From: a virus
DNA: 26,411 nt
Virus record (IMG/VR): IMGVR_UViG_3300046001_003075
Location: 1 to 26,411 of that record
Strand: one strand, 5' to 3'
In this document: one piece after another, positions 61-25,126 of the stretch
Layout: every line of letters starts with the position of its first letter
Position numbering within the stretch: position 1 is the stretch's first letter
Made by a program: the position numbers and the translations under genes
Notes under the pieces: generated by a model
The model's input: only the letters and a program-made list of their open reading frames with translations
Told to the model about the DNA's origin: nothing
Databases searched by the model: none

Positions 61-576
61 GTGGCGACGAAAGCCAAGAAAAAACAACGCAGTGACTCTC
101 GCCACGCTGCGAGGCAGGAACGGAAGAAATCAACCGCAGCTGCCAGCCCTGTTCTGAGAGTGCAGGGAGAGGGGTTTTTGTGCGAGCCCTCAGAGATCCC
201 CAAAGACTTGCGATTGCTCGAACGTGCAGTGATTGAAGAATTCCCAGTCACAGCAGAAATGATGAGAACGAGCGTTGAGCGGCTCGAAGAGATTAAGACC
301 ACGAAGACATTCACGATCCCCTGCGGTGAGGGCGTGTTTGAGAGTGAGGCTGTTGCTGCGGGGCTGTCACTAAAGGCGATCGAGATTCAAAACAAGATGA
401 TTGAATCCAACATTAAGCGAAGAGCGCAAGCAACTAAGACGACTCCGCAAACGACAATCAACGTCGGGGTGAATGTTGACAACCGAACTGACGAGCGACG
501 AAATCAGCTTATTGCTCTTGGCGAGCGATTTAGAGCAGCAAGCGTTTTGGTCACGGATTCCACCGGAACAGATTGA
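61..576 (+). CDS. putative terminase small subunit
   Basis: This 171-residue protein would recognise phage DNA for packaging. The assignment rests mainly on position: it lies directly upstream of, and overlaps, the large terminase. The sequence is charged and mostly helical, with a Lys/Arg-rich N-terminus (residues 1-25), a central helical part (about 45-80) and a second helical part near residues 100-125, which suits a small oligomeric DNA-binding terminase subunit. No helix-turn-helix can be named with confidence. The GTG start at 61 is chosen because a strong purine-rich ribosome binding site (AGGGGAGGGGG, 44-54) sits 6 nt upstream. The last 104 nt overlap the start of the large subunit in another frame. 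Residues before position 61 belong to an unresolved upstream stretch. Confidence 0.55.
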   Translation: MATKAKKKQRSDSRHAARQERKKSTAAASPVLRVQGEGFLCEPSEIPKDLRLLERAVIEEFPVTAEMMRTSVERLEEIKTTKTFTIPCGEGVFESEAVAAGLSLKAIEIQNKMIESNIKRRAQATKTTPQTTINVGVNVDNRTDERRNQLIALGERFRAASVLVTDSTGTD

Positions 577-2638
577 TTATGTGATTGGGCAGATTGCTCG
601 ACATGGCGGCGGCCGGACTGGTGCTGATTATGCGGCACAGCAATCGGCAAGAGTGTCTGCAATTCAAAACGCAAAAACAGCAGCGAGCCAGGAGATCGGG
701 CCGCTGCCAGAGATCGCGAATCCACAACGCCGCGAACGATGCGCGGCCGACAACCTGCTATTTGCCGAAACATATTTCAAACCGACGTTCTACCTTCCGT
801 GGGCACCTTACCAGCGGGCAATGATGGATCGCTTTCAAGAGGTTATTTTCTCAGGCGGGAAAGAAGCTCACGCTGTTCGGCGCGGTGGGCTGAAATCGAC
901 CTGTGCTCGTGTTGCAACGATATGGGCAGCGGTCAACGGACATCGCAAATTCCCGGTCTTGATCGGGGCGACGGACGATAAAGCAAACGAACATCGGGAG
1001 AACTTCTTCAGTTTGCTGGCGTCATCGCCGACGCTTTTGGATGATTACCCGGAACTCACTCCGCTCCTGCTAAAACTCCGACAGCCGAAACGCCAGTTTC
1101 GACTGAATGGCAGACCGCTGACATTGAGCCACAAAGACGAACGAGGCCGAATCGTTTTTCCTGATATTCACGACGCTCCCTCTTGTCAGTGTCACATTGC
1201 CCCATACTCGGTCAACTCCACAGACGTTTCCGGGCTGTCCTATGTCGATCGTTTTGGCGTCACTATTCGTCCGGACCTGCTTGCATTCGATGACGTTCAG
1301 ACGCCTCAGACGGCACTGTCTCCATCTCAGACCGAACAGCTTGAAGACCGGATTACGAAGACATTTGGCGGGCTTGCGGGCCTCGGTCAAAAGATGGCTC
1401 AGATCATGGTTTGCACTGTGCGCGAACCTGATGATCTCACTATCCGATTCTTGAATCGAGAACGGCACAAGGACTGGCACGGCAAGGTTTATCCGTCCGT
1501 CTTGCGAATGCCGGACAGAATGGACCTGTGGGACTCCTACGCCGCAAAACTGGGGCAGGGAGCCACACCGGACGAGGGAAAGAAGCTCGCCCAAGAATTC
1601 TACCTGCAGAATCGGGCCGCGATGGATGCGGGCGGCGTGATTGCGTGGGAACACGATAAGTTGCCGGAGGAGCTGTCTGCTCTGCAGTCACTGATGACGA
1701 TCCGAGCACTTGACCCGGAGTTTTTCCGGAAGGAGATCCAGCAAGAGGGCGACGCGCCGGTCAATACGAGCGGGCTGAAATTGGATTCGCAAACGCTGAT
1801 GAATCGGCTTTCTCATGTCCCGCGGGGCACGATGCCAGCGGAATCGAGCTATCTGACGGCGTTCATTGACTCCTCGGATCAGGTTTTGTGGGGGATGGTG
1901 CTTTCGGTCAATTCAGATTTCAGCGGGTCGATCGTCGATTACAGAACGTGGCCGGATCAGGGCAGGCCAATCTTTTACAAATCGGATCTGGTGCGGACTA
2001 TTGGGCAGGAGCTTCCCGGCAAGTCATGGGAAGAGGCTTTCGTTCACGCTCACAATCAGTTCGAGGCCGAGTTGTTCGCGGACTTCCCGGATCTCGACAT
2101 CATGCTGAAAGACTGGTCGGACGGCGGTCAGATGCCGCTGATTCGTTCGCAGATTCAGTCGAGCAAAGAACGCTCACGGATGCGGCCATCGAAGGGGTTT
2201 GCCATCGCTGCGGGTCGAAAGCCAATTCATCTGTGGGGCGATCCGGTCAGAGACAAGTCAGGAACTGGATGGATTGAGCGACGATCGGATACACCAACGC
2301 ACGTCCAGTTCGACGCAAACCTGATGAAGAGCTTCGCCAGTCGCCGCCTACTCACCGCGGTCGGTGCTCCTTCTGCGATCGTTCTGCCTGGCACTGAAGA
2401 GCGAAGCAACAGACTTTTGGCTGAACACTTTACGGCTGAGACTCCAAAGGAAAAAGCAATTGACGGTGCGAAGTCGATCGTCTGGGCACAGAACGTTGGG
2501 CGTGATAATGACTGGTGGGACACCTTCGTTGGGTGTCTCGTGGGTGCCTCTGTTTTAGGATGCAAGCTAAATGGCGATAGCGGAACAAAGAAAGAGATTA
2601 GAGCGTTCGCACTACCAGGAGGGGCGCGACGTGGGTGA
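473..2638 (+). CDS. terminase large subunit (ATPase-nuclease)
   Basis: This 721-residue protein is the packaging motor: its ATPase pumps DNA into the prohead and its RNase H-fold nuclease cuts the concatemer. A Walker A-like segment RRGGLKST lies near residues 136-143. A Walker B segment DLLAFDDV lies near 268-275. The nuclease domain shows motif I at about 463-470 (AFIDSSDQ, D466), motif II near 542-550 (DIMLKDWSD) and motif III near 678-683 (DNDWWD). Length and domain order fit phage large terminases. The ATG at 473 is the furthest upstream start. The next possible starts are TTG codons near 512, but residues 5-40 look like ordinary protein, so the long form is preferred. It overlaps the small subunit gene by 104 nt and the next gene by 8 nt. 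Confidence 0.9.
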   Translation: MLTTELTSDEISLLLLASDLEQQAFWSRIPPEQIDYVIGQIARHGGGRTGADYAAQQSARVSAIQNAKTAASQEIGPLPEIANPQRRERCAADNLLFAETYFKPTFYLPWAPYQRAMMDRFQEVIFSGGKEAHAVRRGGLKSTCARVATIWAAVNGHRKFPVLIGATDDKANEHRENFFSLLASSPTLLDDYPELTPLLLKLRQPKRQFRLNGRPLTLSHKDERGRIVFPDIHDAPSCQCHIAPYSVNSTDVSGLSYVDRFGVTIRPDLLAFDDVQTPQTALSPSQTEQLEDRITKTFGGLAGLGQKMAQIMVCTVREPDDLTIRFLNRERHKDWHGKVYPSVLRMPDRMDLWDSYAAKLGQGATPDEGKKLAQEFYLQNRAAMDAGGVIAWEHDKLPEELSALQSLMTIRALDPEFFRKEIQQEGDAPVNTSGLKLDSQTLMNRLSHVPRGTMPAESSYLTAFIDSSDQVLWGMVLSVNSDFSGSIVDYRTWPDQGRPIFYKSDLVRTIGQELPGKSWEEAFVHAHNQFEAELFADFPDLDIMLKDWSDGGQMPLIRSQIQSSKERSRMRPSKGFAIAAGRKPIHLWGDPVRDKSGTGWIERRSDTPTHVQFDANLMKSFASRRLLTAVGAPSAIVLPGTEERSNRLLAEHFTAETPKEKAIDGAKSIVWAQNVGRDNDWWDTFVGCLVGASVLGCKLNGDSGTKKEIRAFALPGGARRG

Positions 2639-4985: not shown

Positions 4986-7072
4986 AGCCAGTAAGCATAA
5001 CAGCATTTCTTCGCCTGAAAGCCAACGGAGCAGGCAAGCCGAAACGGTTCTCGATTCTCGCATACTCAGGCGGAACACTTCCAGTTGATGGATTTCCGCA
5101 TCCTGTCGTGGTGGATCTGGCTGGCCTCGAATTACCTGGCTCAATTCCAATTCTGATCGACCACAAAAAGAGCGTTGAAGCAACCCTCGGACTCACTGAC
5201 AACATCCATAACGACGGCACGAAACTGACGCTTGCTGGCGCGGTTACGGGGCAGTCAGCACTTGCACAACAGGTACTCGCACAGGCCGCCGCAGGTCACA
5301 CATGGCAGGCGTCAATTGGTGCGATGGTCATTGAATCGGAAGACATTCCAGCCGGTCAAACGGCAACAGCAAACGGGCAGACCTTTACAGGGCCTGTTGT
5401 GATCGCACGGCGTTCCGTGCTTCGTGAAACGTCGGTCCTTCCAATGGGGGCGGATTCGACAACTTCAGTGAATCTGGCAGCATCCGCTCGCCGGTTTTTG
5501 AAAGGATCGGCAGCTATGTCGTTCGAAGATTATTGCAAGAGCTTGGGGCTTGATGCCGCCACTCTAACGCCAGAAGCTGCCGCTGCTCTGCAGGTCAGTT
5601 TCTCGGCAATGACCGCACCAGCTGCGCCAGTGATGGCCGCTCCCGTTGCTCCGGCATCTGCACCCGCGATGCCGACGGCAGCCGCTCAGGCCATACTTGA
5701 CCTGACGGCGTCATTGACGGAAGGACGAAAGCAGATCGCTGCTCAGTTCCGCAAGTCAGCAGAGATCCAGGCGAAGGCGGCTGGCCATCCAATGATTGCT
5801 GCAACAGCAATTGAACAGGACTGGTCAATCGAGAAGGTTGAACTGGAAGTCATTAAGGCCTCGATGGCGTCAGGCAAGACTCGTCCGACATCATTCGGAA
5901 CGGCCCAGAATGCACCTGAACTGATGCCTTTGGTTCTTGAAGCCGCGTTGTGCTCAACACGCGGAATCAAAGACACCGAAAAGCAGTTCGACGACAAGAC
6001 GTTGCAGGCTGCACATTCTCAGTTTCGTCGTGGGGCTGGTCTTCAGCAGATCATGCTCATGGCGGCTGCTGCCAATGGTATGCCAATGTCCGCCGGGCTG
6101 AAGATCACAACCGGAAACATTCGCGAAGTGCTCAGTTACGCTTGTCCAGACGGACGAACCGTGAGTGCCGCGTTTACGGCGATTAGCCTTCCGGGCATCC
6201 TGTCGAATGTAGCGAACAAAGAGTTGCTACAGGGTTACATGGAGGAGGATATGGTTTGGAAGGAAATCGCCCAGACGAAGACCGTCAGCGACTTCAAAAC
6301 CGTCACGAGCTACCGCCTGCTTGATGATATGTCCTATGACAAGCTCGGCCCTGGTGGCGTGATGAAACACGGCACCCTGAGCGAAGAGTCATTTACTCGC
6401 TCGGTCGACACCTACGCGAAGATGGCAAGCCTGACGCGACAGGACATCATCAACGATGATTTGTCGGCGTTCGACGATCTTCGCAATCGTATCGGCCGTG
6501 GCGGGGCCATGAAACTGAACGATCTGTTCTGGTCGACGTTCCTAGGCAACCTTGCGACGATCTTCACGGCAGCTCGAACCAACTACATCACCGGGGCGAC
6601 AACTAACCTCGGAACTGATGGCGTCGGTCTTGGACTTGGGCAGAAGGCCTGGCGTCAACGAACGACTCCATCGGCTGATGGGGCAAAGCGGCTGTCAGGG
6701 ACTGCGAAGTTCTTGCTTGTTCCGCCAGAGCTTGAAACCGTTGCAGACGCTCTTTACGGAGCACGCAACATTGCGGCCGTCAAGGTTTCGGATGTCAACA
6801 CATTCGCAAACAAGTACACGCCGATCGTCGCCAATCAGCTTTCTGATTCGTCGATTAGCGGATACTCAACCACAGCATGGTACTTGCTCGGTGACAAGTC
6901 ACAGGGTACGCCAGTTGTTGTGAGCTTTCTGAACGGCCAGGAAACGCCGACCGTCGAATCTGCTGACGCTGACTTCAATCAGCTTGGCATTCAGTTCCGT
7001 GGCTATCACGACTTCGGGTGTGACCTCGGCGACGGATACCTAAACGCACTGATGAGCAAGGGTGCAGCGTAG
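4982..7072 (+). CDS. fused prohead protease and major capsid protein
   Basis: This 696-residue protein joins two functions. Residues 1-170 match an HK97-type (S78) prohead protease: H61 in LIDHKKS and S111 in WQASIGAMV are the likely catalytic His and Ser. Residues about 180-270 are Ala/Pro-rich then helical and could be a scaffold-like delta domain. Residues about 300-696 look like an HK97-fold major capsid protein of the Mu gpT-like group (for example the segment SLTRQDIINDDLSAFDDL). The protease should cut the delta domain from capsid subunits during maturation. An internal ATG at 5516 (codon 179) with AAAGGA 9 nt upstream could make a separate scaffold-capsid product. The fusion is read through without any stop. 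Confidence 0.85.
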   Translation: MKPVSITAFLRLKANGAGKPKRFSILAYSGGTLPVDGFPHPVVVDLAGLELPGSIPILIDHKKSVEATLGLTDNIHNDGTKLTLAGAVTGQSALAQQVLAQAAAGHTWQASIGAMVIESEDIPAGQTATANGQTFTGPVVIARRSVLRETSVLPMGADSTTSVNLAASARRFLKGSAAMSFEDYCKSLGLDAATLTPEAAAALQVSFSAMTAPAAPVMAAPVAPASAPAMPTAAAQAILDLTASLTEGRKQIAAQFRKSAEIQAKAAGHPMIAATAIEQDWSIEKVELEVIKASMASGKTRPTSFGTAQNAPELMPLVLEAALCSTRGIKDTEKQFDDKTLQAAHSQFRRGAGLQQIMLMAAAANGMPMSAGLKITTGNIREVLSYACPDGRTVSAAFTAISLPGILSNVANKELLQGYMEEDMVWKEIAQTKTVSDFKTVTSYRLLDDMSYDKLGPGGVMKHGTLSEESFTRSVDTYAKMASLTRQDIINDDLSAFDDLRNRIGRGGAMKLNDLFWSTFLGNLATIFTAARTNYITGATTNLGTDGVGLGLGQKAWRQRTTPSADGAKRLSGTAKFLLVPPELETVADALYGARNIAAVKVSDVNTFANKYTPIVANQLSDSSISGYSTTAWYLLGDKSQGTPVVVSFLNGQETPTVESADADFNQLGIQFRGYHDFGCDLGDGYLNALMSKGAA

Positions 7073-8675: not shown

Positions 8676-9199
8676 CAGCCAGCGTTGACGGGCTTGAGGC
8701 GATTCTAAAGCGGATGGAGACGCTGAAGCAAACGTCAAAAGTCTCAGTGATGCGATCCGCAATCCGAGGTGGATTGAATGCCATCGGAAAGCAAATGAAA
8801 GCGGACCTTGACCCTGATGCAAAACAGGGCAAAGTCGCGGTCAAGAGTAAATTCAAAAAGGGCAAAAAACGAATCACGGCAAAAGTCGGTTTTGGTGTCG
8901 GAAAGAAACGCGGCAAAACATACCCAGTCAACCGCAAAGGAAATCGAAAGTCTGGCGTTGGAATTGACGGCAACAATGTGCATTGGTGGGTCGCAGGAAC
9001 AGGCCGCAGATCGACCGGGGCTGGTAAAGGCCGAAAGCGTGGCGGGCGGCAAATGTATCGTGGATCAATGCCAGCGATGCAGCCAGGGCTTGCAACGATT
9101 GCCTATGCAAAAAGCAAAGGCAAGGTTAAAGCAGAAATGATTAGGCGTGGTGCTCTTCAACTCGAAAAGGAAGCTAAAAAGCTCCAAAGGATAAACTAA
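8672..9199 (+). CDS. HK97 gp10-like tail completion protein
   Basis: This is a 175-residue, strongly basic protein. It opens with a helical stretch (LEAILKRMETLKQTSKVSV), then AIRGGLNAIGKQMKADL near residues 29-45, a Lys-rich middle, and a WWVAGTGRRS segment near 107-116. This succession is characteristic of HK97 gp10/lambda gpZ-type tail completion proteins. They act at the head-proximal end of the tail. The GTG start overlaps the preceding stop by 4 nt. The very high Lys/Arg content in residues 47-95 is greater than I would expect and may reflect contact with DNA at the tail entrance. Confidence 0.7.
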   Translation: MTASVDGLEAILKRMETLKQTSKVSVMRSAIRGGLNAIGKQMKADLDPDAKQGKVAVKSKFKKGKKRITAKVGFGVGKKRGKTYPVNRKGNRKSGVGIDGNNVHWWVAGTGRRSTGAGKGRKRGGRQMYRGSMPAMQPGLATIAYAKSKGKVKAEMIRRGALQLEKEAKKLQRIN

Positions 9200-9200
9200 C

Positions 9201-9608
9201 ATGGCAGCGAAAGTGAAGTCGAAGGGCACGGCTCTTTTGATGGAAATTACATCGGTCTATACGGCAATCACAGGACTGAAGCAGGTCAGCATCACCGGCA
9301 TTCAATCCGAGACATACGAATACAAGGTACTCGACGGGGCTGCCGCAATTGCCCATGCCGCGACTGGTTATGTGCAAGTCGCCACGATCAACGCAGACAT
9401 TTTCCGAGATCCAGATGACACTGTTCATGCCGCTTTCATCGCCAAGTGCTACGCGCCAGTCGACACGAACTTCAAAATCACCTACGCCGACGCGACTCCG
9501 CTCAGTGAAATCTACAGCGGTGTCGGATTCGGCATTGATACCACAGCAGCTCCGGCAGATGGCCTGAGTTCTTCAATCACGATTCAGACATCCGGAGCAC
9601 CTAGCTAA
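9201..9608 (+). CDS. putative major tail (tube) protein
   Basis: This is a 135-residue beta-rich protein placed where siphophages encode the tail tube subunit, two genes before the assembly chaperones. Alternating strands such as LKQVSITGIQSETYEYKVLDG and the small, soluble composition fit a tail tube fold. AAAGG (9186-9190) lies 10 nt before the ATG. It is short for the family, which suggests that it lacks the Ig-like extra domain found on many tube proteins. Confidence 0.6.
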   Translation: MAAKVKSKGTALLMEITSVYTAITGLKQVSITGIQSETYEYKVLDGAAAIAHAATGYVQVATINADIFRDPDDTVHAAFIAKCYAPVDTNFKITYADATPLSEIYSGVGFGIDTTAAPADGLSSSITIQTSGAPS

Positions 9609-13691: not shown

Positions 13692-14120
13692 ATGGGTGAA
13701 AACACTCTTGGCGATGAAGCTGTTGCAGAGCTTGCAAAGACGGTGCGCGAAGTGTCTCGCCGCATGATGAACGAGCAGCCGCATCGAGGCCGGTGGCAGT
13801 TTCACGGCGGCGGATCTGGCGGCGGTCACACCATCTGGTTCACAATCACGGATGTTCTCTGCCCCGAAACCGACTACGTTTCTGAAACGACATTAGTGGC
13901 CACGGCGACCTACTACAACCAAAGCTGCACGGGAACGCCACCGGGGGCGGAGTACGGCGGCGAGTATTATGTCTATGACATCTGCAATTACCTGAGCGGA
14001 TTGACTCCGCAGGACTTGGTTGGAACGACAGGTCGAGCCACCTACATGTACCCGCTAACCGGTGCGTGTACGCCAAAATGGATCATCGATGATTTATGTG
14101 CGCAGCCGGAGTGCGACTGA
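13692..14120 (+). CDS. cysteine-containing tail-region protein
   Basis: This is a 142-residue protein, unrecognised. A helical N-terminus (residues 1-30) leads through a Gly-rich linker (HGGGSGGGH) to a beta-rich, Tyr- and Cys-containing C-terminal domain with six cysteines. The layout resembles an anchor helix carrying an exposed domain. It overlaps the next gene in TGATG, and the next protein is also cysteine-rich, so the two may form one tip assembly. Confidence 0.6.
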   Translation: MGENTLGDEAVAELAKTVREVSRRMMNEQPHRGRWQFHGGGSGGGHTIWFTITDVLCPETDYVSETTLVATATYYNQSCTGTPPGAEYGGEYYVYDICNYLSGLTPQDLVGTTGRATYMYPLTGACTPKWIIDDLCAQPECD

Positions 14121-16015
14121 TGCCTCCGCGTTATCTTCGCAAAGCATCGCCAACGCGACTGAAACCCTGTGCAGAATTCACGGTTGAAACTTGCGACACG
14201 GCTCCGGCCGATCAATGCTGCGGGGCGTTGCCCTGCAAGATTTGCATTGAATGGGAGACCTACGAAAACGGCATCTCCTATGGCTCAGCAACCTTCGCAG
14301 GATCATCGTGGACAGGCACGGTTGGCGGCCATGCGTTTGTATCGTACTGGGAACGCGAAATTCTCCCGGACATCACTCCGCCAGTCAGTAGCAATTCGAT
14401 CGGAATGCCGTTTGCCCTGATCGAAGCGGGCACATATACGATGGGCAGCCCCGGATCGGAAACCGGGCGAGATGCCGACGAAACCGAGGTCTCAACAAGT
14501 GTCGATGAATTCGTGATCGGTACAACTGAGGTCACGCAATCGCAATACCTAACTGTGCGAGGATTGAGTCCGAGTCATTTTAGCGGCAGCGGCAGGCCAG
14601 TCGAAAAAGTGTCTTACGCGGATGCTCAAGCATTTTGCACGGCGTTGTCGGCGTTGCCTGCTGAAATCCTAATGGGACGGTCCTATCGGCTGCCAACGGA
14701 AGCGGAATGGGAGTTTGCTTGCCGAGCTGGAACAACAACGGCGTACAACTTCGGGGCAAATTCTGCGGACCTTCCAGACAATGGTTGGTTTGTCACAAAC
14801 AGCGGGGCTGAAACTCATGATGTGGGCGGCAAGCCGGCTAATGCTCAAGGACTTGTCGACACTCACGGCAACGTCTGGGAGTGGGCGCAAAACTTAAGAG
14901 CAGACGGTAGCGCCGGTGATCAGGTCATTCGCGGTGGCGGCTGGAATTCCACTGCTGCGGAATGCAGATCAGCAAACCGCACACTGATTGCCGAAACAAC
15001 GAAACGAAACGACATCGGCTTTCGGGTTGTGATGGTTCGGTCGCCAATACCTCAGTTTGGCGAATGCGAATATGTTGTTACTCTCGACGATGAGGAAGTT
15101 TACCGCGCGAACTGTTACGAGGGGGCAAGCTGCCGAGATCCGAGCGGCACAGTGGCGGTGGCAACGGCATATCTTGAAGGCACGTTGAGCTGGAGCAAGC
15201 ACGAGCCACGAGAATTGGCGTTGATTGTTGATCCTGACACGGGCTGCAATGATTTCTTCTGCGGAACCTGTCGTTGCTCCTGCGAGTGCGTTTGCGTGAC
15301 GATTACGGAATCGAACGGGACGACTTCATCTGGCGAACTTTGCAACATCAGCTACGAATGCGACGCGCCGGTTTGGGCTGGTTCAGTCGGCTACTATGAC
15401 TTGTCGATTGCACTTGGCCGGGATCAATATGGCGAGTGCATTATCACCATGTCCGTCGATGGAGAAGAACAGGAGCCAGTTGCTGCGCCGGGCTGTGCGT
15501 CGATGACCGCGACCGTGACGTTGTATGACGGAACGACGATTGCGGTTGCTTGCAAGCAGTGCTCGTGCGAATCAAGTGGCTGTCCATGCTGTCCCGGTTG
15601 GCTTCTTACGGCGTCGGCGTCAGTCGAATACACGACGATTCCAGAAACATCCGATTGCGGGGCATTTGATCCAGCCGTTGTGACTGGCGATTTTGGGTGC
15701 GAGGATACTGGTGATCCGGAGGGCACGGTTTTACGTTTGGACGCTACGTTTCTCAACGCCAGAGTTTTTTGCCAAGACAACGGAGATGGCACCTATCAAT
15801 GGAAAGCTCAGTACCGCTCCGCAATTTCAGGCGGAACATTTGAGCCGCCGATATCGGACACATGGGCAGACGCGGAAGATTTCGAGTTTACTTGCCCAAC
15901 GTGCGACGATCCTATCGGAGAATTTTCTTTTATCGCGTATATGGCGTGTGAGACGTCCGGAGGGGTGGTATCGTATCCCGTGCTAGTTCAAGGCGTGGTA
16001 ACAATCGGGTGCTGA
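14120..16015 (+). CDS. cysteine-rich tail-tip protein with inserted FGE/SUMF1 domain
   Basis: This is a 631-residue protein. Residues about 91-307 form an FGE-sulfatase (SUMF1) domain of the C-type-lectin fold: it begins near MPFALIEAGTYTMGS, contains RLPTEAEWEFACRAG and THGNVWEWAQN, and ends with RGGGW (271-275) and IGFRVV (299-304). The first active-site cysteine of true formylglycine-generating enzymes is absent (GGGWNS, with one Cys at 282), so a binding role is more likely than an oxidase. The flanks, residues 33-90 and 308-631, are Cys-rich beta domains. The insertion falls inside the first of two similar Cys-rich repeats. GGAG (14108-14111) supports ATG 14120 over ATG 14096. The protein is probably a host-recognition or tip protein. 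Confidence 0.7.
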   Translation: MPPRYLRKASPTRLKPCAEFTVETCDTAPADQCCGALPCKICIEWETYENGISYGSATFAGSSWTGTVGGHAFVSYWEREILPDITPPVSSNSIGMPFALIEAGTYTMGSPGSETGRDADETEVSTSVDEFVIGTTEVTQSQYLTVRGLSPSHFSGSGRPVEKVSYADAQAFCTALSALPAEILMGRSYRLPTEAEWEFACRAGTTTAYNFGANSADLPDNGWFVTNSGAETHDVGGKPANAQGLVDTHGNVWEWAQNLRADGSAGDQVIRGGGWNSTAAECRSANRTLIAETTKRNDIGFRVVMVRSPIPQFGECEYVVTLDDEEVYRANCYEGASCRDPSGTVAVATAYLEGTLSWSKHEPRELALIVDPDTGCNDFFCGTCRCSCECVCVTITESNGTTSSGELCNISYECDAPVWAGSVGYYDLSIALGRDQYGECIITMSVDGEEQEPVAAPGCASMTATVTLYDGTTIAVACKQCSCESSGCPCCPGWLLTASASVEYTTIPETSDCGAFDPAVVTGDFGCEDTGDPEGTVLRLDATFLNARVFCQDNGDGTYQWKAQYRSAISGGTFEPPISDTWADAEDFEFTCPTCDDPIGEFSFIAYMACETSGGVVSYPVLVQGVVTIGC

Positions 16016-18092: not shown

Positions 18093-18564
18093 ATTTGTTG
18101 GGCGGTATGCGACGGCCGACGAAATCTCTGTAATAGAGATCGGCAGCCGCGACATCAACGGCAGTGTTCGGGCACACTTTCCCGGAGCCACATGGATCGG
18201 CCTTGATTTGATTGCAGGCCCAGCGGTCGACGTTGTGTGCGATGCGATGGAATACGATCCGACACAGTTGGTCGACATGGTGATCTGCTGCGAGGTGCTT
18301 GAGCACTGCATGACATGGGACTCACTGATTTCCCACGCTGCAAGCTGGCTGAAGCCCGGCGGAAAAATCCTGATCACATGCGGCGGTCCCGGCAGAGATC
18401 CGCACTCAGCAATTGACGGCGGGGCATTGCAGGTCGACGAACACTACGGCAACATCAGTCAGGACCAGCTTGCAGAGGAGCTTCATTACGCAGGATTCGT
18501 CGGAATCGACGTGAGCGGCAATGAACACTGGCGAGACACTTACGCGGTGGCGTGGAAATTGTAG
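18073..18564 (+). CDS. SAM-dependent methyltransferase (class I)
   Basis: This is a 163-residue protein with motif I at residues 22-27 (EIGSRD), the acidic residue after strand 2 (GLDL), and EVLEH at 74-78, the usual signature of small class I methyltransferases of the Methyltransf_11 type. ATG 18073 has AGGGAGA upstream, overlapping the glycosyltransferase end. The pairing with two glycosyltransferase-like genes suggests methylation of a sugar or of a small-molecule precursor, not of DNA. It is the last gene before the hairpin at 18616-18664. Confidence 0.75.
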   Translation: MHPGAFEFVGRYATADEISVIEIGSRDINGSVRAHFPGATWIGLDLIAGPAVDVVCDAMEYDPTQLVDMVICCEVLEHCMTWDSLISHAASWLKPGGKILITCGGPGRDPHSAIDGGALQVDEHYGNISQDQLAEELHYAGFVGIDVSGNEHWRDTYAVAWKL

Positions 18565-18615
18565 GCAAGACCGTCATAGCCAAGGCAAGCCGAGCGGATA
18601 AATAGCAAGGCAGCC

Positions 18616-18664
18616 AAACGCAGTCTGGGAACAGCCATCTTGATCGGGGTGGCTGTCTGCGTTT
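18616..18664 (+). terminator. large two-part hairpin at end of late operon
   Basis: AAACGCAG (18616-18623) pairs with CTGCGTTT (18657-18664), and inside it ACAGCCA (18631-18637) pairs with TGGCTGT (18650-18656), giving 15 bp with a 7-nt asymmetric bulge. The T-run after it is short (GTTTCTG), so termination may be weak or factor-assisted. It lies 52 nt after the methyltransferase stop. Confidence 0.6.
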
Positions 18665-18670
18665 CTGCAC

Positions 18671-18698
18671 TTGATTCTGGCGCGACGGGTGCTATCAT
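18671..18698 (+). promoter_or_regulatory. sigma70-like promoter with extended -10
   Basis: TTGATT (18671-18676) and TATCAT (18693-18698) are separated by 16 nt, and TGC directly precedes the -10 element (an extended -10). Transcription should start near 18705 and run into the structured leader and the ParB-like gene. Confidence 0.6.
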
Positions 18699-18704
18699 AG
18701 AATC

Positions 18705-18820
18705 AACGTCACACGGTCAGGTGTGATATGTCAGTAAGTTTTCCGGGCTGTAAACCCGGACTGCCTAAGCCCGCCGCAAGTCTGACCGCTTGCGTGCGGG
18801 TTTTGCATTTGGAGATTTGC
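18705..18820 (+). ncRNA. structured leader RNA with kissing-loop potential and terminator
   Basis: Three hairpins lie between the promoter and the ParB-like start. H1 is CACAC/GTGTG (18710-18725) with loop GGTCAG. H2 is CCGGG/CCCGG (18743-18759). H3 is CCCGCCGCAAG (18770-18780) with CTTGCG and GCGGG (18789-18800, one bulged T), followed by TTTT (18801-18804), and so is an intrinsic terminator. Loop H3 contains CTGACC (18782-18787), the exact complement of loop H1. GGGCT (18745-18749) can also pair with AGCCC (18768-18772), which would break H3. It is either a cis-acting attenuator or a roughly 100-nt small RNA. Confidence 0.6.
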
Positions 18821-19831
18821 ATGTTTACCACAGATAGCAGGACAGAGAATTTTCTGACTGCAATGGGAATTAAGTACGAGTATTGCAACGGGTTACGGCT
18901 GCCTGATGACTTCGCAAAAGGATGGAACACCGAGAACATTGGCAGGCCGGTTGCGGTGAGAGAAGATGCTGTTTTGGAATATGCAGCGTTGATGGAAGCG
19001 GGATCGGCTGCACCGGCACCGATTCTATGCAAGACGGAAGACGGGCTGCGGGTTTTGGATGGAGTTCAGCGATTGTCAGCGGCGGAACTGCAGCAGACAA
19101 CCAGAATTTCTGCCTATGTCGTTTCGACCGACAATGAGGATTCACTGGCTTCCATTCGTGTTCTTGCAAACGCACGAATGCAGGGCAGGGCAGAACCGGC
19201 AGAATGGACGCGACGACGGGCAGTTGAAGTGCTTGTCGTCGGCAGGGGAATGAGTGCGGCAGAAGTCGCCAAAATGGGCGGATGGAAAACAGCGGATGTC
19301 AAACGCATTGCGGACGCAATTGAATTGCAGTCAAGAATTTGCCACATCGGAGGGCCGGAACTGTCCGACGCAATGCTGGCAGAGTTGCGACCGTTTATTG
19401 AAAAGGGGCCAGTCCTTGAGCAGGCATCGCAGCCGGTGACAGGGTTTCTGCAGACTCTGAAGCAGTCGCGAATGTCGGCTACGGACGCAACGCCTTACAT
19501 TGAATCATTTTTTGGATCTCTGCCAAAGTCTGCAAACCCGCACAAGGTCTACGCAGACCGGCTGGAGGAATTGCACGAAGACCCGGAAATTCGCTCACGG
19601 ATTACAGGCAGGCAGTGTGCAGAGCTGCCGAAGGATGTCGTGCTGCTTCGAACGCTGAAGACAGCAGAAACTGTGATTGACCACATTTTGACGCATGGCG
19701 AGCGAGTGCCAAACGTCGATGAATTCTTTCGGCTGCTGAATCGACTGGAGACAAAACTGAAATCGATTGCACCAAACAAGGCGGCACAGACTGTTCGCGT
19801 TCCTGCTGATATGTGGAGTGACAAACGATGA
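18821..19831 (+). CDS. ParB-like nuclease-fold DNA-binding protein
   Basis: This is a 336-residue protein. Residues about 50-100 form a ParB/Srx-type domain, with DGVQRLSAAE at 80-89 and a following strand (RISAYVVS). A helix-turn-helix-like segment follows at about 143-170 (MSAAEVAKMGGWKTADVKRI). The C-terminal half is helical and unrecognised. Such phage proteins bind DNA in partition, transcription control or replication. No ParA is in the window. ATG 18821 (GGAG 18811-18814, 6 nt upstream) is preferred over ATG 18728, because the first 31 codons of the longer form lie in leader hairpins. The gene overlaps the next one in ATGA. Confidence 0.7.
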   Translation: MFTTDSRTENFLTAMGIKYEYCNGLRLPDDFAKGWNTENIGRPVAVREDAVLEYAALMEAGSAAPAPILCKTEDGLRVLDGVQRLSAAELQQTTRISAYVVSTDNEDSLASIRVLANARMQGRAEPAEWTRRRAVEVLVVGRGMSAAEVAKMGGWKTADVKRIADAIELQSRICHIGGPELSDAMLAELRPFIEKGPVLEQASQPVTGFLQTLKQSRMSATDATPYIESFFGSLPKSANPHKVYADRLEELHEDPEIRSRITGRQCAELPKDVVLLRTLKTAETVIDHILTHGERVPNVDEFFRLLNRLETKLKSIAPNKAAQTVRVPADMWSDKR

Positions 19832-20598
19832 GCGTTTCGCAAGTAAAAAAACGGTTTGCTGAAATGGAGTCATATCTCGGCAGGGACAAGGAAGCGTTGC
19901 GGCGTCTGAAGTTGTTGAAAGATGACGTGAACGTGCTAAGAACGTCGCTGGCGGCGGCAGAAGAAAAGGCAGTGGAAGCTGAGACAGTGAAGGAGGCTGC
20001 TAGGAAACGGGCAGATGAGGCTGAGGCTGAGGCTGAGGCAATGAGACTCGATAATCAGAAAATGCGGGATGTCCATAGATGTATGGAAGCGAAGCTTCGC
20101 AATGTGGAATTTCAGGCATTGCGGCAAGAGGCTGATGAGAGCGATATGGACGAATATGATGATACGGTGCCTACAGGTGATGGCGTTGAGGCAAAAAAAC
20201 TAATGAAAGCATTGCGACGGCAATTGCCTCAATGCCCTCAATTGACAGCCAAGGAATCTGCTAGACATTGCCCGGCGTTTATTCGACAGGGATTCTCTAG
20301 GGGCTGGTCACACAGAGATATTTGGACCCTTGGCGCATCAGTTGCAATAATTGCAGCACACGAAGGCGGCGTAACTATCATTGATCCAATAGGCACGGAC
20401 TTCGGAGGAAAGGACAAGAAAATAGGAGAGGGAATGGGAGGGGCTTTTATCCGGTGGTTTATGAAAAACTTTAAGGAGCGAGATCCCAGTTTGCCAAAGC
20501 CTAAGGTTTATTTCGGGAGTCGCGGTGCCCCAGCAGAATTGATTGAACCAGAAAGGTTAGAAGAACTCGCCACCGTTGGACCAGAACCCAGCAAATAG
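19828..20598 (+). CDS. coiled-coil protein of unknown function
   Basis: This is a 256-residue protein. Residues 1-105 form a long charged coiled coil, including an Ala-Glu repeat encoded by four GAGGCT-like hexamers (20017-20040). Residues about 125-235 form a compact domain with Trp and Gly residues (FIRQGFSRGWSHRDIWTLG) that I do not recognise. It is translated by ATGA coupling from the ParB-like gene, so the two probably work together. Confidence 0.65.
   Translation: MSVSQVKKRFAEMESYLGRDKEALRRLKLLKDDVNVLRTSLAAAEEKAVEAETVKEAARKRADEAEAEAEAMRLDNQKMRDVHRCMEAKLRNVEFQALRQEADESDMDEYDDTVPTGDGVEAKKLMKALRRQLPQCPQLTAKESARHCPAFIRQGFSRGWSHRDIWTLGASVAIIAAHEGGVTIIDPIGTDFGGKDKKIGEGMGGAFIRWFMKNFKERDPSLPKPKVYFGSRGAPAELIEPERLEELATVGPEPSK
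20017..20040 (+). repeat. (GAGGCT)4-like hexanucleotide repeat
   Basis: Three exact GAGGCT units plus one GAGGCA lie in frame and encode Glu-Ala pairs in the coiled coil. Copy changes would lengthen the coil without a frame change. Confidence 0.8.
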
Positions 20599-21062
20599 CC
20601 TTGACCGACTTCGTGGGTGTGGTAATGTGCGTTTGCTGTTCGGCGTGGAAACCGAGTAGCGACGATCAAATGGCAAAACGAATTGATTATTGGGCCGCAT
20701 CTCCCTTACACTGATGCACCGCGATTTGATCGTCGCACAATCCACAATGACAGCCAGAGCAGCAATGCCCTGGCTGTCGGCGTTTGGTGAGTGCAGAAAA
20801 GGTCGTTGTCTTGGTGGTAACTGGACACAGAAATACCGCCGCTGTGAAATTCGTCGCAAACTGCGTGAGGCGTTTAATTCTGGGCAACGTCCAAACTGAC
20901 GACCCAGACAGATCCAGAGCCCTCGGTCACTGTTGCACGAAACACCAAGACAGGCTGAATCCGAAGAGATCCAATATAGGATCTGGATAAAGTGGCGGTA
21001 TGCGCAAAGAGATATCTCAGTAAAACACGGGCAAAACAAAATCTTTTCCACAATCCAGCAAA
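20599..21062 (+). other. gene-poor region with inverted repeats
   Basis: No convincing gene was found in 464 nt. The region contains a 13-bp perfect inverted repeat (GCGACGATCAAAT, 20659-20671, with its complement at 20724-20736, 52-nt spacer) and a 9-bp hairpin (GACAGCCAG 20749-20757 with CTGGCTGTC 20770-20778). It also has a short dyad AGATCC/GGATCT (20967-20984), the palindrome GAGATATCTC (21009-21018) and one DnaA-box-like TTTTCCACA (21044-21052). It may hold a structured transcript, a terminator, or a replication or partition site. A possible 50-codon frame from ATG 20748 (with CRKGRC) is too weak to call. Confidence 0.5.
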
Positions 21063-21106
21063 ATGATATCACCACGCATTGACGCCCATGCCGATAGTGA
21101 TATCAT
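21063..21106 (+). promoter_or_regulatory. promoter overlapped by operator-like dyad
   Basis: ATGATATCAC (21063-21072) and GTGATATCAT (21097-21106) form a perfect 10-bp inverted repeat, and each arm contains the palindrome TGATATCA. A promoter, TTGACG (21079-21084), 16 nt, TATCAT (21101-21106), lies between and within them, so a protein bound to the right arm would cover the -10 element. It drives the following regulatory genes. Confidence 0.6.
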
Positions 21107-21146
21107 GCCCGCACCGAGACGCAAAACACTGGTAAGGAAAAGAACG

Positions 21147-21305
21147 ATGAGCTACTCAAAAGCATGTGAAATTTTGGGCTATACGACGCCAAAGTCTGTT
21201 GACGCAAACGCACGATTGGCTCGCATTAGACTAAGCGTGTTGCCGGTTGGCTCTCCTTTGCGTTATGCGGTTGCATGTGACGTTTTGATTAAAGCAGCGA
21301 GGTAA
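21147..21305 (+). CDS. small helix-turn-helix-like protein
   Basis: This is a 52-residue protein. YSKACEILGYTTPKSVDANARL resembles the first helices of an excisionase or MerR-like winged helix, and a short strand pair seems to follow. AAGGAAAAG lies before ATG 21147; an in-frame ATG at 21063 lies inside the operator and is less likely. It is the first gene after the operator-like promoter, so it may be a regulator, perhaps autoregulatory. Confidence 0.55.
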   Translation: MSYSKACEILGYTTPKSVDANARLARIRLSVLPVGSPLRYAVACDVLIKAAR

Positions 21306-21310
21306 TTGAA

Positions 21311-21466
21311 GTGAAAAAGAAAGTTAAAGGCAATCCTCAACTGCTGCTGCGTGTTCCGCCGGAACTGCAAAAGCCTTTGGCGGATGAATCAGCAAAGACC
21401 GGCGAAAGTCGGCAGGGCGTGTTGTGGCGGATCGCGGCAAAGTATTTTAAGGGGCGGAAAGCGTGA
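21311..21466 (+). CDS. ribbon-helix-helix-like mini protein
   Basis: This 51-residue open frame starts at GTG 21311. It has a short strand (QLLLRVPPEL) followed by two helices (KPLADESAKTGES, then GVLWRIAAKYF), the pattern of Arc/CopG ribbon-helix-helix DNA-binding proteins. It overlaps the helicase GTG start by 4 nt and lies 5 nt after the previous stop, so it is part of the same unit. Confidence 0.6.
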   Translation: MKKKVKGNPQLLLRVPPELQKPLADESAKTGESRQGVLWRIAAKYFKGRKA

Positions 21467-22941
21467 GAATTGATTTCAATACACGTTCAGCAGAAGACTA
21501 TGCACGTTTTCTAGCTGTACGCAAATGCCCGATCTACCAGTTCAAGGGATCGGCCGCAATTGTCCCTGACGAATACGCCTCACTCGTCGGAGTGAAGTCA
21601 AAGCGAAAGACGGGCAAGAAATACACTCCGGCCGTCAACCTGTTCGACTACCAGGCAGACATTGTTCGGATCGCTGTTGAGCGTCGCAAGTATGCTATTT
21701 TTGCTGACTGCGGACTTGGAAAAACGTTAATGCTTCTGGAGTTCGCTCGCCACTGTGCTGAGCAAACAAAAGGCAAAGTGCTAATCGTTTCCCCGTTGAT
21801 GGTGTGTCGTCAGACAGTGGAAGAGGCATTGCGATGGTACGGAGAAGCGTTCCCGATCGGTCGAGTCAAAGCCGCTGATTTACAGGAATGGCTGACCGCC
21901 ACAAATGGGCTACAAATCGGAATCACAAACTATGAAGCGATCCGCGAAGATCTTGCGCCGGGGAAACTGACTGGCCTGATTCTCGACGAATCATCCATGC
22001 TTAAAAGCCATTACGGGGCATGGGGCACGCGGCTAATCGAATTGGGCCGAGGACTTGATTGGAAATTGTGCGCGACAGGAACGCCAGCTCCGAACGATCG
22101 AATCGAGTTTGCGAATCATGCGGTACTGTTGGATCGTGCGAAAACCGTCAATGAGTTTCTCGCCACATACTTCATTAATCGCGGCGAAACGCAAAACCGA
22201 TGGGAACTCAAGCCGCACGCATTAAAGCCGTTCTATAGGTCGCTTGCTGACTGGTCGATCTTTCTGACGAATCCAGCCACTTACGGATGGAAAGATAACG
22301 TTGGCGTCACTCCGCCAATCAATATCCACATCGATCACATCGATCTGACAGACGAACAACGCAAGGCTGCTCAGAGTGTTACTGGCTCGCTGATCACGAA
22401 CAACATCGGCGGCATTGGCGATCGTGGCAAGCTGTCACAGATCGCAAAAGGTAAGGGCGGAATAGCATCACTCAAGCCTGCATTTATTCGATCACAAGTC
22501 GAGAGTTGGCCAGATGAATCGACAATCATTTGGTGTCACTACAACGACGAGCAAGAACAGATGGAAAAACTGTTTCCTGAAGCCGTTAGCGTTTCCGGTG
22601 ACACGAAAGAAGCAGACCGGGAAGCGGCGGTTGATGCGTTTAAATCAGGCCGCGTCAAAGTGCTAATCACGAAGCCAAAGATTCTTGGGTTCGGCTTGAA
22701 TCTACAGGTCTGCACTCGGCAAATCTTTAGCGGCATAAAGGACTCCTATGAAGAGTTCTATCAGGCCGTTAAGCGATCGAATCGTATCGGTTCCACAAAG
22801 CCTCTCAATGTCCATATTCCAGTGACGGAGCTGGAAGTTCCATTTGTTGACAACGTGCTGCGCAAAGCCGGTCGAGTTCAACAGGACACGGAAGAGCAGG
22901 AAGCACTTTTCAAGGAGATTGGCCATGCATGTTTTCGATGA
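21463..22941 (+). CDS. SNF2-like superfamily 2 helicase
   Basis: This 492-residue ATPase would translocate on DNA. The motifs are clear: I at 82-88 (CGLGKT), II at 175-178 (DESS in place of DEAH, common in phage SNF2-like proteins), III at 205-208 (TGTP), V near GFGLNL, and VI at 438-443 (RSNRIG). The length matches the compact phage form without accessory domains. The GTG start overlaps the previous stop by 4 nt. The 3' end overlaps the methyltransferase by 17 nt. A role in replication, recombination or anti-restriction is possible. Confidence 0.9.
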   Translation: MRIDFNTRSAEDYARFLAVRKCPIYQFKGSAAIVPDEYASLVGVKSKRKTGKKYTPAVNLFDYQADIVRIAVERRKYAIFADCGLGKTLMLLEFARHCAEQTKGKVLIVSPLMVCRQTVEEALRWYGEAFPIGRVKAADLQEWLTATNGLQIGITNYEAIREDLAPGKLTGLILDESSMLKSHYGAWGTRLIELGRGLDWKLCATGTPAPNDRIEFANHAVLLDRAKTVNEFLATYFINRGETQNRWELKPHALKPFYRSLADWSIFLTNPATYGWKDNVGVTPPINIHIDHIDLTDEQRKAAQSVTGSLITNNIGGIGDRGKLSQIAKGKGGIASLKPAFIRSQVESWPDESTIIWCHYNDEQEQMEKLFPEAVSVSGDTKEADREAAVDAFKSGRVKVLITKPKILGFGLNLQVCTRQIFSGIKDSYEEFYQAVKRSNRIGSTKPLNVHIPVTELEVPFVDNVLRKAGRVQQDTEEQEALFKEIGHACFR

Positions 22942-23860
22942 TTCAGAACAGTTCCACGTCCATCACGGCGATTGCATTCCGCACATGCTGGAAGACATGC
23001 CTGAAAACTCTGTCGACTTTGCTGTGTTTTCTCCGCCATTCCCTAGCCTGTATGCTTACAGTGACGCAGAAGGCGACATTGGAAACGTTGACTCAATGGG
23101 CATGGAAGCGGCGGTTCATCTGTCGTTCATGTTCAACGGGCTGATGCGAGTCCTGAAGCCGGGACGGGCCGCAATCGTCCACGTCTGCCAGATTCCACGA
23201 ATGAAGCGATCAGGCGGCGTTGGCCTGTGCGACTTTCGAGGAACCAACATTCGGCTCGGTGAGCGTGCTGGCCTTGTCTACGAATACGACTGGAGTGTTC
23301 GCAAGAATCCACAATCACAGGCTATTCGAACGCGATCACGAGAGCTTCAGTTTTCTGGACTGGAAAGCGATCGTTCAAAGCAACGCGGCACGCTTCAAGA
23401 CTACTTGATCAAGTTTCGCAAGCCAGGCGAGAACGCAACGCCAATCGACGCCAAAGGTCAGGTCAGCCGAAACGATTGGATTGCATGGGCTGAAGGCTGC
23501 TGGGATGACGTGCATGAAACCGATACTCTGAACACGGCGGCCGCGAAGTCCGACGACGACACGAGGCACATTTGCCCGTTGCAGCTTGAAGTGATTCGCC
23601 GATGTGTTTTGTTGTACTCGAATCCAGGTGAGATCGTTTTCAGTCCGTTTGCTGGCATCGGATCGGAAGGATTCGTTTCGCTTGGAGGAACATCGCCAAA
23701 GACAAAACGGGCCATCTACGACAAGCGGCGTTTTTATGGATGTGAACTGAAGACCGAGTATCACAAGCAGGCATTAAAGAATCTTGATCTGGCAACACGT
23801 CAGCATTCTGCGGTGCATCAGTCGAGTTTGTTTTCAGAACTTGAGGAGGCCGCAACATGA
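22925..23860 (+). CDS. DNA methyltransferase, SPPF type
   Basis: This is a 311-residue protein with the catalytic motif IV SPPF at residues 36-39 and the SAM-binding motif I FAGIGS at about 242-247, an order (IV before I) typical of the beta class. SPPF favours N4-cytosine methylation, but N6-adenine cannot be excluded. The target sequence is unknown. AGGAG (22914-22918) precedes ATG 22925. No restriction endonuclease partner is adjacent, so it is best read as an orphan methylase protecting phage DNA or marking replication, perhaps working with the overlapping helicase. Confidence 0.85.
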   Translation: MHVFDDSEQFHVHHGDCIPHMLEDMPENSVDFAVFSPPFPSLYAYSDAEGDIGNVDSMGMEAAVHLSFMFNGLMRVLKPGRAAIVHVCQIPRMKRSGGVGLCDFRGTNIRLGERAGLVYEYDWSVRKNPQSQAIRTRSRELQFSGLESDRSKQRGTLQDYLIKFRKPGENATPIDAKGQVSRNDWIAWAEGCWDDVHETDTLNTAAAKSDDDTRHICPLQLEVIRRCVLLYSNPGEIVFSPFAGIGSEGFVSLGGTSPKTKRAIYDKRRFYGCELKTEYHKQALKNLDLATRQHSAVHQSSLFSELEEAAT

Positions 23861-24946: not shown

Positions 24947-25126
24947 ATGCTAGTGCTTAGCCGGAAAACTGAAGAAGACATCCTGATCGGTGATTCAATT
25001 GTTGTGAAGATAATCGAGATACGAGGCGACAAAGTTCGCCTTGGAATCGAAGCCCAAAAAGATGTTTCCGTTCATCGCAGGGAAGTTTCGGAGGCGATTG
25101 CGAGAGATGGCAAAAAGAAAATCTAA
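24947..25126 (+). CDS. csrA: CsrA-type RNA-binding translational regulator
   Basis: This 59-residue protein is a clear CsrA. CsrA dimers bind GGA motifs in mRNA leaders and block or alter translation. The sequence begins MLVLSRK and contains [18 protein letters not shown] and VSVHRREV. The RNA-binding residues L4, R6 and R44 are present, so it should be functional. ATG 24947 has GGA (24936-24938) in the ribosome-binding position, which is also a potential CsrA site for autoregulation. It lies next to a structured RNA. A carried CsrA could redirect host translation during infection. The 3' end overlaps the next gene by 20 nt. Confidence 0.92.

Follow-up and report, generated by a model that had tools for sequence, protein, structure and literature searches.

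What does a transcription terminator do between a promoter and its gene, and why should the loop of that terminator be an exact complement of another loop in the same leader? These questions are raised by a leader, here termed leader A, in a 26,411-nucleotide IMG/VR virus record (the window, meaning the whole stretch of DNA analyzed). The window has genes for terminase, portal, capsid/protease and tape-measure proteins, and hence derives from a tailed phage, the portal of which has only distant cultured relatives. Leader A and five further types found in related phages, B to F, probably constitute a new family of cis-acting leader RNAs, namely attenuators with a kissing-loop terminator.

Leader A and the gene behind it

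The first gene block ends upstream of leader A, and the leader is followed by a gene at 18821–19831 (plus strand). It is preceded by a promoter-like sequence, TTGATT-N16-TATCAT (18671–18698, plus strand), which bears out, as a consensus match only, the promoter that an earlier, sequence-only reading of this DNA had placed just upstream, and from which transcription is predicted to start near 18705. An inverted repeat, TTGATTCT-N20-AGAATCAA (18671–18706; arms 18671–18678 and 18699–18706), spans this promoter and is a possible repressor operator. The plus-strand transcript is predicted by folding to form three hairpins. H1 (18708–18727) exposes the first kissing segment, GGTCAG (18715–18720), in its loop; H2 (18742–18760), TCCGGG(CTGTAAA)CCCGGA, corresponds to the middle hairpin of the earlier reading; and T (18767–18804) is an intrinsic-terminator-like hairpin extending to 18803, with a T-run at 18801–18804 and the second kissing segment, CTGACC (18782–18787), as its loop. 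The 3′ arm of T has a single bulged U at 18795; the hairpin went unreported in a simple terminator scan. Directly past the terminator, a Shine-Dalgarno-like GGAG can be read from the sequence (18811–18814). The leader folds with a minimum free energy of −47.3 kcal/mol (z −5.0), and none of 200 shuffled sequences was equally low.

The complementarity between GGTCAG and CTGACC, for which the region had been singled out, is exact over all six loop bases. Its proposed extension to 7 bp stands as an inverted repeat (CGGTCAG, 18714–18720, and CTGACCG, 18782–18788), but not as seven free bases, since the outer C and G are also paired in the stems. What did not survive is the suggestion that GGGCT pairs with AGCCC to break the terminator: the alternative pairing costs about 13.5 kcal/mol (−31.4 versus −44.9) and therefore does not provide the mutually exclusive antiterminator pairing expected of an attenuator, and no such pair was seen on inspection of leaders B to F.

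The downstream gene had been described as ParB-like. Its product has no match to a Pfam or PHROG family. Modeled with AlphaFold at moderate confidence (mean pLDDT 67.5), it matched structures of ParB, Noc and KorB in Foldseek (best E 1.8e-4), so that the label is a fair one. A search for the gene in bacterial genomes found none. The start at 18821 is kept in relatives, and an N-terminal extension from an in-frame ATG at 18728 was rejected because this ATG is absent in L023, a diverged relative. Elsewhere in the window, 24953–25126 encodes a phage CsrA (Pfam PF02599, E 2e-19), as does the related contig L163 at 5615–5854, and the gene at 14096–16015, near the end of the structural block, has an FGE-sulfatase domain (PF03781, E 7e-34), which is uncommon for a protein from the structural region of a phage.

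Seven near-identical relatives (ParB-like protein 99–100% identical) share leader A, with H1 identical in all of them, and they say little about the loops; in L005 to L008 the DNA further upstream of the leader differs from the window. L023 is more informative. Within H1, H2 and T it departs from the window at a single site, the bulged base, which is A in place of U. Both linkers have diverged, as have the promoter region and the first codons; the three hairpins, loops included, are thus under constraint. This copy has no good promoter immediately before H1; on inspection, TTGACA-N16-TACACT was seen further upstream and would give the transcript a longer 5′ part. Before its leader, at 330–960 (minus strand), L023 has extra DNA relative to the window, with a small helix-turn-helix-like gene and promoter regions containing GCGTACGC. 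Homologues of the ParB-like protein at 70–75% identity have no recognizable leader: in L009 to L013, L033 and L034, which encode divergent homologues, none is found directly upstream and the contigs gave no match to the covariance model described below.

Other structured or regulatory elements occur near leader A. Just upstream, 18616–18664 holds a second structured element, AAACGCAG...CTGCGTTT, in which an internal stretch, TCTGGGAA, does not vary and an inner stem shows apparent compensatory changes among the window, L006 and L023 (z −4.2 in the window). The non-coding stretch 20712–20905 is conserved with L163 1216–1397 (93 columns at 90%, then 27 nt at 96%), contains GACAGCCAG...CTGGCTGTC and has no Rfam match; it is possibly another structured RNA. 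At 21064–21106, a promoter-like TTGACG-N16-TATCAT is overlapped by a 10-bp inverted repeat, ATGATATCAC/GTGATATCAT, which is likely a repressor operator.

Leaders of the same plan with other loop sequences

Further leaders were sought with a covariance model (R1) built from the window, L006 and L023, in which H1, H2 and T were paired and the kissing interaction was left out. In 245 kb it found two further sites, in L014 and L015 (about 21 bits, E about 0.01), which define leaders B and C and are weak by score but have the same plan as leader A. In leader B, GTAGAAG from the 5′ part and CTTCTAC from the terminator loop match at all seven positions; the leader precedes a helicase gene, downstream of which an N6/N4 methylase is encoded. 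In leader C, H1 is CAGTC(GTACGAG)GACTG and the terminator loop, CTCGTAC, is its exact seven-base complement; the leader precedes a gene of 109–112 amino acids that resembles the window gene at 23857. Leader D (L163, about 9193–9300; H1 loop AGGACAAG, terminator loop ACTTGTCC) was first found by a descriptor scan for complementarity and was recovered also with a pattern that left the loops free, and downstream of it are a small gene, a replisome-organizer-like gene (weak tblastn matches) and a DnaB-type helicase. Leaders E (L183, AAGCTGTA/TACAGCTT) and F (L186, CCCTACCAC/GTGGTAGGG) come from relatives whose ParB-like gene is 71–74% identical, and the gene behind F is similar by eye to the replisome-organizer-like gene downstream of D. 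Contig G014 has types B, C and D almost unchanged, and G015 likewise has B and C.

Common to A to F are a hairpin, a small hairpin and a terminator with a one-base bulge, followed by a gene. Nearly all of the sequence is variable, the constants being the site between promoter and gene, the three hairpins and their spacing. H2 is a short hairpin of different sequence in the other types (loops UUCG, GAAA, UUAG or other), the bulge lies on the 3′ arm of T 7–9 bp below the loop in A to E and elsewhere in F, and the T stems of A, B and D have a common core, CCGCCG...GCGTGCGG. The loop pairs (GGTCAG/CTGACC, GTAGAAG/CTTCTAC, GTACGAG/CTCGTAC and GGACAAG/CTTGTCC, together with two weaker types) are unrelated in sequence between leader types, yet each is perfectly complementary. 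For A, its L023 copy and leaders C and D, the predicted ensemble leaves both segments at least 94% unpaired. Leaders B, E and F, in which the first segment is predicted to be partly paired, may for that reason be looser or less certain members.

The weight of this complementarity depends on how each leader was found. Leader A entered the comparison because the sequence-only reading had noticed its loops, and a complement scan supplied E and F, so these three are not independent tests of the pairing. For leader A alone the loop match is only mildly improbable by chance: the probability of a match of at least seven bases anywhere upstream of the terminator is about 0.014, and in a survey of about 1.1 Mb, 46 of 32,362 pairs of neighboring hairpins have at least six complementary loop bases; this survey takes in the window, and it counts each overlapping variant of a hairpin separately. 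Leaders B and C come from a model without the kissing interaction, and D is recoverable with the loop left free; for these, the probability of a seven-base match anywhere upstream is 0.016, 0.005 and 0.009, respectively, and in C and D the match additionally falls within the loops. Across the six pairs (E and F included), 42 of 42 cells are paired and all seven positions have changed on both sides, compared with 24–42% in slid controls. The sequence-only reading had held that compensatory changes in both loops would support the pairing and that loops varying independently would refute it. Compensatory changes are what was found, among leaders of the same plan in different operons and not among orthologues, and in no copy found do the loops vary independently.

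Geometry and specificity point the same way. The segments are 61, 60, 61, 57, 60, 58 and 65 nt apart, a range of 57–65 nt over all types and 57–61 nt in B, C and D, and under uniform placement the chance of such narrow spacing is about 3e-4 for six types and 0.015 for B to D, the latter estimated over a narrower scan range. Duplex energies are −6.9 to −15.7 kcal/mol for a leader's own pair and no better than −2.9 kcal/mol for cross-pairs. The full motif (segment, H2 and strong terminator) has 13 matches in 552 kb of family phages, some of them one leader seen in several contigs, whereas a control set of 1.39 Mb, made up of random viral loci of different composition, has none; its frequency across the relatives is far beyond chance. 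In 12 of the 13 matches all parts of an attenuator are present (promoter-like site, leader, G+C-rich hairpin, T-run and gene). Taken together, these comparisons of sequence make pairing of the two loops well supported.

Pattern scans of viral contigs with a free H1, H2 or T loop returned the known family and matches judged in context to be due to chance, and a relaxed scan (six kissing bases, spacing 54–67) gave weak extras only, in family and control alike. One candidate, in L156 (ACACGGTCAGGTGT...CTGACC), was rejected as a chance match because the hairpins are absent. No sequence similar to the leader was found among cultured phages or plasmids, a three-hairpin pattern search in genome contigs found none, and the motif was absent from the stretches examined in four phage records that matched the helicase of leader B by tblastn.

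How the kissing loops could control read-through

The three-hairpin plan, complementarity kept with different letters, near-constant spacing and position ahead of a gene are established as features of the sequences; from them we infer that the loops pair within one RNA and control the frequency of read-through. The reading that we favor, with a probability of about 0.6, is that the leaders act in cis on early (DNA-metabolism) phage operons and that the kiss between the H1 and T loops sets read-through by stabilizing the terminator. Transcription would start just upstream of H1, which would be the first hairpin to fold and would expose a loop of 6–8 bases; H2 would fold next and act as a spacer, and T would be made afterwards. 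Because the T loop lies about 17–24 nt before the end of the U-run, it would exit RNA polymerase near the choice between stopping and continuing at the U-run, where the already folded H1 loop could kiss it and thereby set the frequency of read-through into the gene. By stabilizing the terminator, the kiss would create an attenuator that is off by default and is relieved by some factor or a modified polymerase. With no leader peptide, riboswitch or energetically cheap antiterminator in evidence, control of a terminator by RNA tertiary structure is the remaining economical reading.

The direction of control is the weakest step, and we favor a strengthening of the terminator because a bridge of constant length is more to be expected with a terminator that has already folded than with one that is still open. 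The same spacing bears on the reverse arrangement, in which the H1 loop would grab the T loop before the 3′ arm of T exits and so delay the terminator, as a built-in antiterminator of early genes that resembles HK022 put in function. Lambdoid phages are known to place early genes behind terminators that have to be overcome (PMC9378689), and since the U-run ends only 19–24 nt past the T loop, loop pairing could precede stem closure. Catching an open strand would not need near-constant spacing, however, and A to F have neither a second processive element nor a common contact sequence; we consider this arrangement, the main rival, unlikely.

Still less probable is action in trans, whereby the terminated leader, a small RNA of ~100 nt, would pair with its own copies (the H1 loop of one to the T loop of the next) and give the operon concentration-dependent feedback. 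The loop pairs do match their own type only, as homotypic recognition requires, and a compact fold ending in a terminator would yield a stable small RNA, but pairing within a molecule benefits from a higher effective concentration, and a trans model leaves the constant spacing of 57–65 nt unexplained. Nor does the anatomy alone demand regulation, and the elements could simply be a promoter and a structured 5′ UTR in which the kiss tidies or stabilizes the transcript end or protects the mRNA; this is very improbable, as an unregulated strong terminator separating promoter from gene would be a cost borne by every copy. Barely tenable is a purely DNA-level account, with H1 and H2 as operator palindromes, T as a plain terminator and the loop complementarity as incidental, since, even with a perfect dyad (TCACAC-N6-GTGTGA) adjoining the predicted start site and a product resembling the DNA-binding ParB/KorB, it fails on the matching loops of B to D, with their other letters, their spacing and their unrelated downstream genes, and is largely refuted by the covariation of loops among paralogous leaders.

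If the kiss does control termination, the leaders would be attenuators in which the terminator loop is tied to the first hairpin and the pairing letters can change freely, an additional class of phage gene control. As each copy recognizes only its own partner, they would also be ready-made orthogonal RNA parts. A more tentative extension is a phage-wide code, in which the terminators of several early operons of one phage are gated by private, mutually orthogonal kissing pairs that respond to one general factor or to homotypic RNA feedback. Acting through tertiary structure and not common sequence, such leaders would form a new class of RNA for transcription control. The case also shows that, even where there is no common sequence and Rfam-type models are weak, structured leaders can be traced through their conserved geometry and complementary loops.

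Relation to known systems

The sequence-only reading knew of no named family with this plan, and the searches agree. Among 4227 Rfam families there was no match at the gathering threshold in the window, including the leader, and none up to E=1 in 18541–21470; in L163 only two sub-threshold, chance-level matches were obtained, both off the leaders. Open PMC papers yielded nothing with this leader plan.

The closest comparison among phage elements is with HK022 put, a cis-acting antitermination RNA of a lambdoid phage, which has about 70 nt and two stem-loops and no internal terminator, and which acts on distant terminators via the β′ zinc-binding domain (PMC9378689). The leaders resemble put as short hairpin RNAs that start early phage operons with terminators ahead of genes. 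They do not, however, consist of two stem-loops lacking an internal terminator: they have three hairpins, the third a terminator whose loop pairs with the first hairpin, and their copies have no common sequence. In the lambda nut/N system an RNA element likewise sits between an early promoter and a terminator (PMC9378689), but no boxA- or boxB-like common sequence was seen in A to F and no N-like protein was identified.

With ribosome-, TRAP- and riboswitch-type attenuators the leaders share an intrinsic terminator in the leader before the gene. They differ in having no conserved leader peptide, no Rfam riboswitch, no conserved sequence resembling a ligand pocket and no conserved antiterminator pairing; a leader peptide was considered and rejected, as A to F have no common leader ORF such as a ribosome-mediated attenuator requires.

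Kissing of fully paired loops of 6–7 bases is known from ColE1 RNAI/RNAII and pT181, where the partners are sense and antisense RNAs. The loops of the leaders are fully complementary over a similar length, but both lie in one transcript. Two complementary loops within one RNA, with letters that vary between phages, are found in the phi29 packaging RNA, an RNA of the packaging motor. The leaders have the same two properties, and differ from it in that each bears a terminator and that they are repeated before several operons.
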